From a virus: DNA of 64,000 bases. Positions 40,284 to 43,003 of this stretch are shown here, piece after piece. Position 1 is the stretch's first letter; each line of letters begins with the position of its first letter. The translations under genes were made by a program, and so were the position numbers. The stretch spans positions 94,813 through 158,812 of the IMG/VR virus record IMGVR_UViG_3300033146_003955. One strand, written 5' to 3'. The notes under the pieces are model-generated. The model made no database searches. It was not told where the DNA came from and saw only the letters and a list, made by a program, of their open reading frames with translations.

Positions 40284-40313
40284 TGGTAAAAGGGACCGAA
40301 GCCCCTCTTACCA
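40284..40313 (-). terminator. UUCG-loop hairpin at the stop of the nucleotidyltransferase C-half
   Basis: TGGTAAGAGGGGC-TTCG-GTCCCTTTTACCA forms a 13-bp stem with two G-U pairs and a UUCG tetraloop. The TAA stop of the upstream gene lies within the stem. Leftward it is followed by ATTATTTT, a weak T-tract; rightward by GTTTTTT, so it may act in both directions. Confidence 0.7.
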
Positions 40314-41447
40314 GTTTTTTGCGATTGTCAGTGCTTCTTCAAAAGTGGTAATCTCTTCACCAAGCTGAAGTTCACTGATGTGATTAAGAATCTCTTTGAA
40401 AAGAGGTCCTGGCTTGAAACCCATATCGATAAGATGCCGGCCAGAAATAAGTGGTTCTGGCAGTTCAATCTGATCTTCAAGAGTCCCAACAAAGGATTTA
40501 ACTTTCTCAACCCAATCAAGTTTAGTCAGACAAGGCTCAGCACAAATTGCACTTTCAGTATCTGCTTTAGAAACAATAACAAGACTATCAAGTCTCTCAT
40601 CTGCAACAAGTCTACGCAGAGTTGATTTCTTCATTTCCTTAGCATATTTAATTCTCATATGATTTTCAACGAGCCAAACAATATCATTAGTTTCCTTACT
40701 TGAGAATCTCAGCCTGTTAAGTATGTCCCTTGCAATTTCAGCACCAGCTTTATCATGACCATGAGCTTTAATCATACCATCTTCGATAGTAAAAGTGGCA
40801 GGTTTTCCAATGTCATGAAGCAGCGCAGCCCAAAGAAGAATAACATTATCAGTCTCCTTCCTAACAGCATCAAGAGTCATCATAGAATGTACACCTACCG
40901 AACCTTCACTGTGCCATTTAGGTGCTTGTTCACATCTCCAAAGTTTCTCAACTTCAGGAAGGATTGGTTCAAGCAGACCAGATGCTCTAAGCATTTCAAT
41001 ACCAATAGATGGTTTAGGAGCCATAAGCATTTTATTCATTTCATCGTGAATTCTCTCCTGAGATACAGAATCAATTTCACCAGCATGTTTCTTAATTGCT
41101 CCCCAAGAAGCCTCATCAAGTTTGAAATCAAACTTCGAAGTGAAGCGGATCGCCCTAAGCATACGAAGTTTATCTTCTTCGATTCTTCTCTTAGGGGAAC
41201 CAACAAATTTAACCAGTCCGTTCATAAGGTCTTTTTCACCATGAGTAAAATCAAAAATCTCTTCACTAATAGGATCAAAGAAAAGTGCATTCATAGTAAG
41301 GTCTCTTCTCATAGCATCTTCCTTCATTGAAGAGAACTCAACACTATCAGGCCTACGACCGTCACTTTCCAAAGTTATACATTCACCTTCTGGATGGATG
41401 CAGTGCCCCTCAAACCATTTACATTTATTACACATTGTTTTGTTCAT
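40308..41447 (-). CDS. cca: tRNA nucleotidyltransferase/poly(A) polymerase, C-terminal half of a split gene
   Basis: This 379-residue protein lacks the catalytic GG...DxD start but has the rest of the enzyme: [10 protein letters not shown] (29-38), [13 protein letters not shown] (43-55), neck and body helices, and an HD domain (LLHDIGK at 209-215). The missing N-terminal part is encoded at 42668-43003. Residues 1-28 are foreign to the family and Cys-rich ([19 protein letters not shown]). Its own promoter TTGGAC-16-TATAAT stands 6 nt before the ATG. The two products probably reassemble, as in other split phage enzymes; that is inference. CCA addition or polyadenylation cannot be told apart here. 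Confidence 0.85.
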   Translation of the reverse strand: [379 protein letters not shown]

Positions 41448-41453
41448 ATCTAT

Positions 41454-41481
41454 ATTATACCACGTTCTTTGAAATGTCCAA
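41454..41481 (-). promoter_or_regulatory. sigma70-like promoter, predicted leaderless, for the C-half
   Basis: TTGGAC (41476-41481), a 16-bp spacer and TATAAT (41454-41459) lie 6 nt before the ATG at 41447. The same architecture and much of the same sequence (TTTTGGACATTTC, GGTATAATA) precede the N-half. Confidence 0.75.
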
Positions 41482-41523
41482 AATTAAATATGCTAAAAAC
41501 ACAACCTTTTGTGGAAAGATGAC

Positions 41524-41537
41524 AAGATAACTATATA
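41524..41537 (+). promoter_or_regulatory. AAGATAA promoter-like element
   Basis: AAGATAACTATATA lies 25 nt upstream of the ATG at 41555 and closely matches the element before 3761. It gives the inserted genes their own signal on the strand opposite to the host gene. Confidence 0.45.
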
Positions 41538-41554
41538 ACAATGAAGGAGCTAAT

Positions 41555-41692
41555 ATGGAAAGTGAAAAACAAGTTAGATTGGATAAGGAGACATGGGAGA
41601 CATTGAAAATAATGTCTGTTAAAGAAAATAAATCAATGAAACAAGTTATAAAGGAAATGGTGAATGATAGAGAAAGTAATAATAAACAATAA
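41555..41692 (+). CDS. ribbon-helix-helix-like small protein in the inserted element
   Basis: A 45-residue product with a good RBS (AAGGAG, 5-nt spacing). EKQVRLDKETWETLKIMSVK, then ENKSMKQVIKEM, fits the beta-helix-helix pattern of CopG/Arc-type DNA-binding proteins. It overlaps the endonuclease gene by 29 nt, so the two form one unit. It may regulate the endonuclease; that is inference from size and position. Confidence 0.65.
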   Translation: MESEKQVRLDKETWETLKIMSVKENKSMKQVIKEMVNDRESNNKQ

Positions 41693-42704
41693 AGAAATTA
41701 TAGTTAAAAATTATAATGAAATTATACATTCTCATAAATATGGTAAAGAAAAAATTACTCTATATATAAATAATGTCTATTATCTTAAAACAAAAGATTT
41801 TATCCAGTATACTTGTGATGGGTGTGGTAATGATGAAACTAAAGAATATGCTTATAATTATAATAAATATCACCAAAATGAAGTATTGTGTGGTGAATGT
41901 TTAAAAAAGAAATCAAGATTAGAAAAATATGGCGTTGAAAATTTCTTTCAAAAAAAAGAAATACATAAAAAAGCACGGATAAATAGATCAACACAAGAGG
42001 CTAAAAATAAAACTAAACAAACAAAATTAAGTCGTTACGGAACTGAAAATTATAATAATAAAGAAAAAACAAAACAAACATGCATAAAAAGATATGGCGG
42101 TAATAGTCCTATGTCTGACCCAGTAATTAAAGGAAAATTAAACATATATTGGAATAATTTAAAAAATGATGATTATAATACCAAGGTAAAAAATAAACGT
42201 AAAGAAACGTGTCTCAAAAAGTATGGAGTAGAATACACGACACAAACTGATATAATGAAAGAAAAGTCTAAACAAACTTGTTTAAAGAATTATGGTGTTG
42301 AATATCCAGCTCAAAATCCAGAAATTCATAGAAGACAGATGTCACGGTTTGGTAAAACTAATACATTAAAACAAATAAATGAAGATTTACATTATCAAAC
42401 TATTCCTGAATTAGAATGTATTGAATATTGCCAATTTAATAATACAAATATATGGGATGGTCCTTCTATACCTTACATATTTGAAAATAAAAAACATATC
42501 TATCATGTAGATTTTGAAACTGATGAATACATAATAGAGATAAAAGGAAGTCATGGCTGGTATAAAAAGAATTTAGCGTCAGGTAAAATAGAAGCCAAAA
42601 ACAAAGCAGCACAAGAATATGCTGCTTCTGTAAATAAAGAATTTTTGTTTCTATTAGATATTAAAAATTATCTTTTTTTAGGTTCAAAATTTTTACAAGA
42701 ATAA
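41664..42704 (+). CDS. homing-type endonuclease splitting the nucleotidyltransferase gene
   Basis: This 346-residue protein begins with a CDGCGNDE/CGEC zinc-like pair (about 52-79), then basic repeats of the KQTCLKxYGVExxxQxP type (about 85-230) shared with the endonuclease at 20126. A PD-(D/E)XK-like core follows: HVDFETDEYIIEIKGSHGWY near 275-295 (D...ExK). It is encoded opposite to the gene it interrupts, and its last codons overlap the 3' end of the N-half. It probably drove its own insertion, with cleavage at or near the intact gene. Confidence 0.8.
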   Translation: MIEKVIINNKEIIVKNYNEIIHSHKYGKEKITLYINNVYYLKTKDFIQYTCDGCGNDETKEYAYNYNKYHQNEVLCGECLKKKSRLEKYGVENFFQKKEIHKKARINRSTQEAKNKTKQTKLSRYGTENYNNKEKTKQTCIKRYGGNSPMSDPVIKGKLNIYWNNLKNDDYNTKVKNKRKETCLKKYGVEYTTQTDIMKEKSKQTCLKNYGVEYPAQNPEIHRRQMSRFGKTNTLKQINEDLHYQTIPELECIEYCQFNNTNIWDGPSIPYIFENKKHIYHVDFETDEYIIEIKGSHGWYKKNLASGKIEAKNKAAQEYAASVNKEFLFLLDIKNYLFLGSKFLQE

Positions 42705-43003
42705 TCATGAGTTCTGGCTTGAAAAGTAGCACACTCAAATTCTTCATTTTTATGGAGAACAACAATAATTCCAAACTGTTTACCGACAGGTACAGTTCTT
42801 GGAAAAAGAAATTCTATCTCCTCGGGACGTGCATCTGTAGCAATATCCACATCATGCGGCTCATGACCAAGAAGAATATCACGGACTGCGCCTCCCGCAA
42901 TAACGCCAGCAAAACCGTTATCTTTAAGGATGGAAATAACTTCAGTAGCAGCCTGAAACATACTTGAGTCTTTTATATTTTTGTTTAGTTTAATCTTTCT
43001 CAT
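42668..43003 (-). CDS. cca: tRNA nucleotidyltransferase/poly(A) polymerase, N-terminal half of a split gene
   Basis: This 111-residue protein has the catalytic head of the family: AGGAVRDILLGHEPHDVDIAT (GG at 37-38; D51 and D53 as metal ligands) and ECATFQARTHDYS up to residue 102. There the family continues DGRRPDS, which instead begins the conserved part of the protein at 41447. Residues 103-111 (CKNFEPKKR) come from the inserted element. The promoter TTGGAC-16-TATAAT is 6 nt before the ATG. Alone it should not polymerise; joined with the C-half it could. Confidence 0.85.
   Translation of the reverse strand: MRKIKLNKNIKDSSMFQAATEVISILKDNGFAGVIAGGAVRDILLGHEPHDVDIATDARPEEIEFLFPRTVPVGKQFGIIVVLHKNEEFECATFQARTHDYSCKNFEPKKR

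Follow-up and report, generated by a model that had tools for sequence, protein, structure and literature searches.

The window analysed here, a 64,000-nt stretch of viral DNA (positions 94,813-158,812 of the 158.8-kb IMG/VR record IMGVR_UViG_3300033146_003955), carries the gene of a class II tRNA nucleotidyltransferase in two pieces, almost certainly as the outcome of gene fission by a homing endonuclease element, and we put the probability that the two products join non-covalently into a working enzyme at roughly two in three. An initial annotation of this DNA had already described a two-piece gene broken by an endonuclease element, a description now borne out by profile tiling, by intact relatives and by the family of the open reading frame (ORF) in the insert; its coordinates and boundary codons for both halves were all confirmed. 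The N-half (42668..43003, minus strand, 111 aa, TAA stop) contains motif A (GGAVRD...DxD), and the C-half (40308..41447, minus strand, 379 aa, TAA stop) contains motifs B (RRDLTMN), D (EDKLR) and E together with the RNA-binding and HD domains. Against Pfam PolyA_pol, the N-half matches profile positions 3-77 (E 1.5e-18) and the C-half positions 72-125 (E 1e-12), the latter also matching PolyA_pol_RNAbd (E 2e-20) and HD (E 1e-13). In the NCBIfam model NF009814 (CCA tRNA nucleotidyltransferase) the halves cover 3-87 and 92-230, and in the solved CCA-adding enzyme 6ibp of the PDB, chain positions 40-128 and 128-264. Since both the profile coverage and that of 6ibp adjoin, the halves abut at YS/DGRRP (the slash marking the break) and tile one class II enzyme with a gap of 0 and an overlap of at most 1 residue. 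The last homologous codon of the N-half is TCT (42700-42698, serine) and the first of the C-half is GAC (41363-41361). Past this point the N-half ends in a 9-residue stub that contains a cysteine (CKNFEPKKR, then stop), while the C-half begins with a new Cys/His-rich N-terminus of 28 codons (41364..41447, minus strand), which occurs only once in the record and has no counterpart in 50,697 phage records (E 10) or in Pfam. A search of viral contigs with its degenerate Cys pattern was negative as well. The closest profiles and structures are those of CCA enzymes (NF009814, 1miv), yet poly(A) polymerase matches are found too. Instead of the one polypeptide of a class II tRNA nucleotidyltransferase there are two ORFs with their own promoters and terminators, and the gene is therefore a split derivative and not a canonical member of the class.

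Relatives were retrieved by alignment query (the C-half alone, used as a query, found no close ones), giving 142 fetched phage loci, ca. 106 distinct genes, which were screened for split genes and are designated by L-numbers. As the initial annotation had supposed, family members are continuous at the junction: the search for an uninterrupted homologue returned phage genes that read through it in L025, L026, L027, L028, L119, L120 and L127, and a codon-by-codon comparison found L025 and L026 continuous where the window, after ECATFQARTHDYS, is broken. The gene of L025, 47% identical to that of the window, is its sister in a maximum-likelihood tree (support 100/96), and the end branch of the window gene (0.54) is shorter than that of this intact sister (0.71), thus giving no sign of relaxed constraint. 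Of the 38 columns conserved in ≥90% of 74 intact relatives, the split gene keeps 37, including the DxD of motif A, the RRD.T.N of motif B, the ED..R of motif D and the HD residues. In motif A, all seven near-invariant residues are kept in the N-half; the invariant positions of motifs B (RRDxTxN), D (EDxxR) and E and of the RNA-binding domain are all kept in the C-half. The claim that the catalytic residues are intact, though distributed over two products, is thereby upheld. These observations bear on the possibility that the insertion inactivated the gene, leaving recent and uneroded remnants whose promoters drive useless peptides. We regard this as unlikely, even though the insert keeps its own low G+C (26%; the two halves have 38-39% and the window 31%), so that the event may be recent, and one residue next to the break has already changed: neither half shows a frameshift or an internal stop, and the degree of column conservation and the branch length argue against decay.

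The organization of expression signals points the same way. The N-half promoter (43010..43037, minus strand) reads TTGGACATTTC-N-GGTATAAT, and a near copy of it lies in the insert as an outward promoter of the C-half (41454..41481, minus strand); both follow the pattern TTGGACA-N15-TATAAT-N6-ATG, and the 40-nt promoter stretches are 78% identical. Within the window, TTGGACATTTC-N-GGTATAAT occurs in these two copies only (none in 100 window shuffles), and the whole record has four promoters of the TTGGACA-N15-TATAAT-N6-ATG type, with none in a reversed control. The new promoter and start that had been proposed for the C-half are thus supported. As the ATG lies only 6 nt past the -10 box, leaderless mRNAs are predicted for both halves. 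An intrinsic terminator of the N-half, a hairpin with a U tract 40 nt past its stop codon, is located within the insert (42603..42628, minus strand; -15.6 kcal/mol when folded with flanks, z -4.4), and that of the C-half lies at 40284..40313 (minus strand; -21.2 kcal/mol with flanks, z -5.2). Having their own promoters and terminators, the halves look like separate transcription units. A -10 box also stands 6 nt before an ATG of the tRNA nucleotidyltransferase gene in L026, L120, L127 and L130, and given that these relatives look leaderless too, the insertion appears to have provided the C-half with a start type frequent for this gene. A full promoter, start codon and terminator for the C-half, which an insertion need not provide, again speak against a dead gene. 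Leaderless promoters were seen in the window at 41447, 43003 and 62981 (minus strand), most other window genes having Shine-Dalgarno-like leaders. The topoisomerase IB gene of the window (61260-62987, minus strand) also has a leaderless TTGGACA-N15-TATAAT-N6-ATG promoter; it is of the eukaryotic type and complete (N-terminal, catalytic and C-terminal Pfam matches at E 2e-64, 8e-64 and 1.5e-21).

The inserted element itself (41364..42697; 1,334 bases) contains a homing endonuclease ORF on the strand opposite to both gene halves (41664..42704, plus strand, 346 aa), whose stop codon falls just within the homologous sequence of the N-half. It matches DUF7487 as well as PHROG 3339 (E 5e-17) and PHROG 12131 (E 1e-12), and has a C-terminal nuclease signature (HVDF...IIEIKG) of a form, [HY]xD[FY]...(I/V)E(I/V)K, common to ca. 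20 phage relatives, which fits PD-(D/E)XK nucleases. The AlphaFold model of this protein was poor (pLDDT 38, from a two-sequence alignment) and not usable for fold search, and no PDB relative was found by sequence, so that the PD-(D/E)XK call rests on the motif and not on the fold. A second ORF (41555..41692, plus strand, 45 aa), overlapping the endonuclease start, resembles Arc-like ribbon-helix-helix proteins weakly (best E 0.003-0.005, under the curated cut-offs) and has no homologues in phage records. Of what the initial annotation had said about these ORFs, the opposite strand and the homing endonuclease family stand, the ribbon-helix-helix assignment is weak and the nuclease class is given by motif. 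The nearest relatives of the endonuclease are free-standing genes, in L184 (59%, best segment), L183 (45%) and L002 (31%). The phage of L183 also carries a topoisomerase IB 64% identical to that of the window, and therefore the endonuclease family appears to circulate in close kin of the window phage. The L183 relative (L183:2722-3972) is convergent to the topoisomerase IB gene and overlaps its 3' end; in the phages of L120, where the tRNA nucleotidyltransferase is intact, and of L034 the topoisomerase is 42-43% identical to the window's, so that a second uncommon gene links some of the phages with tRNA nucleotidyltransferase relatives to that of the window. Three other homing-endonuclease-like genes are found in the window, at 44509-45582 (minus strand), 51859-52785 (minus strand) and 20126-21736 (plus strand): two treble-clef repeat proteins, the first of which (44509-45582) has four 189-bp direct repeats, and a DUF7487 protein with a Mom-like C-terminal domain.

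In many phage genes that harbour an endonuclease gene, the interruption is an intron or intein (PMC10448857, PMC3653736), and the insert might accordingly be removed from the RNA, or from the protein as a split intein, to leave one continuous enzyme. We consider this very improbable. No Rfam intron, group I or II, was found at E up to 2 in 38000-45600, the N-half terminator lies inside the insert, 40 nt past the stop, and the endonuclease is antisense; a group I intron would moreover lack any frame-keeping junction with T before the insert and G at its end. The spliced intron was rejected on these grounds, and transcripts spliced across 41364-42697, the observation named in advance as fatal to a split gene, are thereby made unlikely. 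The split intein was likewise rejected, as the tails have only 9 and 28 residues, the C-side junction is ES/D and not HN followed by Cys, Ser or Thr, and no Pfam intein or Hint match was found. A second intact copy of the gene was not found in the record either, the two halves being its only matches to the PolyA_pol profile.

The predicted structure of the intact L026 protein (pLDDT 94, built on 39 sequences) best matches CCA-adding enzymes, the nearest PDB entry being 1miv (TM-score 0.82 by target), and in this model the break falls between S95 and D96, in a coil (95-99) with strands on either side (89-91 and 103-105). In crystals of the Planococcus enzyme PhaCCA, loop residues 82-93 are disordered except when CTP is bound (PMC8563995), and the break corresponds to approximately residue 91 in Planococcus numbering (by alignment, with an estimated offset). 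The break is in a flexible, catalytically used loop, the one disordered loop of the enzyme, and this is probably the structurally most tolerant place for a cut. Catalytically, it is also among the most telling, as the flexible loop is the lever that switches the enzyme from CTP to ATP (PMC7014341).

Our preferred explanation is that a free-standing homing endonuclease cassette invaded the gene at its flexible-loop codons (YS/DGRRP) and turned one protein into two separately transcribed products, with the endonuclease antisense to both. The cassette closes the N-half with a stop codon and terminator, and for the C-half it supplies an outward-facing leaderless promoter and ATG that resemble in type those the gene already had. 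We infer that the two products then fold onto each other non-covalently, in the manner of NrdA-a and NrdA-b of phage Aeh1. The catalytic DxD would come from the N-half, while nucleotide selection (EDxxR), the RNA-binding neck and the HD domain would come from the C-half; because these elements reside on different halves, neither would be expected to be active alone. The assembled product would repair tRNA 3' ends, and the endonuclease would cut intact alleles at the break site. Another conceivable outcome is that only the C-half works, in a new role such as tRNA 3'-end trimming, the N-half being a by-product. All HD residues are indeed present in the C-half, together with its new Cys/His-rich N-terminus of 28 residues, but the N-half has kept both motif A, DxD included, and a strong promoter, and an HD function would not call for conserved motifs B and D in the C-half, which makes this outcome improbable.

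Several points weigh against a working two-part enzyme that acts as proposed. Assembly and activity of the halves are what we infer from their sequences, the cleavage site and homing activity of the endonuclease are putative, and no near relative was suited to testing selection after the split. The single altered conserved position, R95 to Q, lies beside the break in the basic/acidic motif (RxD or RxE, within TFR.D/E), which is required for addition of the terminal A and reads TFRTE in 6ibp and TFQARTH, followed by DYS, in the window, with H in place of the acidic residue; R97 may stand in for R95. In a fungal CC-adding enzyme, replacement of RHE by RHH accompanies the loss of A-addition, and restoring the motif alone was insufficient (PMC7014341). 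With this motif altered, A-addition by the split enzyme is uncertain and may be impaired. Furthermore, given that the break sits in the CTP-to-ATP lever, even a properly assembled pair might have an altered CCA specificity.

Fission of this gene is not restricted to the window phage. The fetched loci contained three further split tRNA nucleotidyltransferase genes (L087, L034 and L068); L069, a fourth candidate, was rejected as a plain frameshift (L069:3705-5077, after GGSVRDLILDA) that reflects a sequencing error or a pseudogene. The gene of L087 is split in the same loop as that of the window, a few codons from the window break. Here the dividing gene encodes a GIY-YIG endonuclease (E 9e-10) on the sense strand, and its stop codon overlaps the C-half start. 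In L034 and L068, the split is in the HD domain at HPEG/DV, with ca. 130 and ca. 40 nt between the pieces, respectively; little or no endonuclease sequence is left, and both gene pieces persist, which is not what would be expected of dead genes. As L034 and L087 are sisters in the tree to the intact L120 and L094, respectively, their fissions were independent of that in the window. The independent contig L087, split in the same loop, also bears on the suspicion that an endonuclease sequence was misjoined into an intact gene, which deserves mention for a record that is a metagenomic contig. A misjoin would in addition need to hit an exact codon boundary and equip the C-half with a start and a promoter that matches, and we therefore hold such an artefact to be the most improbable of all the explanations considered.

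These three loci share a further feature (L034:4463-4720, L068:2528-2690, L087:3080-4010), namely a stop-stub of the pattern V[QR]KII.. that ends the first piece, in the form (A)TVQKIIYD or KYVRKIIEK before the stop codon, and a restart peptide, MKLGPKxxYDPNNxEHxDxxKY, that opens the second. The pair occurs at both insertion sites, loop and HD domain, whether or not an endonuclease lies between the pieces, and the stub codons of L034 and L068 comprise five identical, five synonymous and no amino-acid-changing ones. With the patterns used, the MKLGPK restart peptide was found only in L034, L068 and L087 among 2.9 million viral contigs, and not at all in the genome collection. We are inclined to see in this pair a mobile cassette for gene fission; its tails are conserved in protein sequence and persist after the endonuclease is gone, and so may serve to dock the two subunits. 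The window lacks this pair and has its own tails, CKNFEPKKR and the Cys-rich 28-mer; this prefix and the Cys-containing stub exit the enzyme at one point. It is a tentative thought, and one we would sooner doubt than defend, that fission cassettes equipped with a stop-stub for the first piece and a restart unit for the second preferentially hit the tRNA nucleotidyltransferase genes of phages, that the tails may dock the subunits and that the Cys prefix and stub of the window might do likewise, e.g., through a shared metal site.

Divided enzyme genes of this kind are known from other phages. As related from Friedrich et al. 2007 in PMC2988022 and PMC3653736, an endonuclease without self-splicing splits the Aeh1 gene into nrdA-a, mobE and nrdA-b, and the products form a fully active enzyme. 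The parallel to Aeh1 drawn at the outset holds, in that an endonuclease without a self-splicing element (neither intron nor intein) lies inside an enzyme gene that is intact in relatives and leaves two coding regions. The differences are that the enzyme is another one, that mobE is of the HNH type, that the window endonuclease is antisense, and that here a leaderless promoter serves the C-half and a separate terminator the N-half. In T4, the topoisomerase gene 39/60 is split by mobA, and gene 43A/43B is split in Aeromonas phages 25 and 44RR, 43A and 43B co-purifying and being active (PMC2988022); these too are two-piece phage enzyme genes tied to free-standing endonucleases with products that assemble, although the target genes differ and the split in 44RR is an untranslated spacer without an endonuclease. 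Pairs of CC-adding and A-adding enzymes in bacteria and eukaryotes (PMC7014341) similarly distribute CCA addition over two gene products, with the flexible loop being critical, but they are two complete enzymes of partial specificity, whereas the window has complementary fragments of one. The enzymes of Geobacillus stearothermophilus (1miv) and Planococcus halocryophilus (6ibp, 6qxn) belong to the same family and have the same motif order, yet are single chains, 6ibp being continuous where the window gene is broken. Also close are L087, L034 and L068, likewise two-piece phage tRNA nucleotidyltransferases, with an endonuclease between the pieces and the same loop affected in L087; they differ from the window in the GIY-YIG sense-strand endonuclease (L087), in the HD-domain split (L034 and L068) and in their V(Q/R)KII.. 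and MKLGPK.. tails.

As to function, the role ascribed to the CCA-adding enzymes of phages is to restore the 3' ends of tRNAs where host nucleases attack tRNA (PMC7824862). The one tRNA of the record (record position 53503-53574, outside the window; L179) has the anticodon CUA and no encoded CCA, and would itself need CCA addition. Both the tRNA-repair literature and this CCA-less tRNA are context for the function and not proof of it. The CUA tRNA is amber suppressor-like and labelled tRNA-Pyl by ARAGORN; TAG still ends 11 of the 78 ORFs in the window. Recoding of TAG as a cause of the split was rejected, as TAG is in use as a stop in the window and TAA is the stop codon of all four ORFs at the locus, the two gene pieces and the two in the insert. 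The window also has two DHH/DHHA1 phosphoesterase genes (35310-36269 and 56196-57242, both minus strand).

In the literature searched, we found no report of a tRNA nucleotidyltransferase split by a homing endonuclease. The kind of arrangement is known from Aeh1 nrdA/mobE (PMC2988022, PMC3653736). What is new is that this enzyme is the target, that the break lies in its specificity loop, that the cassette is antisense and brings both a terminator and an outward leaderless promoter, and that such fission recurs in several phages. Split-yet-working phage enzymes are few (the Aeh1 ribonucleotide reductase, with the T4 topoisomerase and the phage 25 DNA polymerase as related cases), and the tRNA nucleotidyltransferase seems to tolerate fission, having been split independently in three or more phage lineages. 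Such recurrent splits let one ask how an invader spares its host gene; in the window it would do so by bringing a terminator together with a start codon and an outward-facing promoter. As the broken loop is the one that governs the change from adding C to adding A, the split enzyme also offers a direct test of whether this lever must be a continuous chain.

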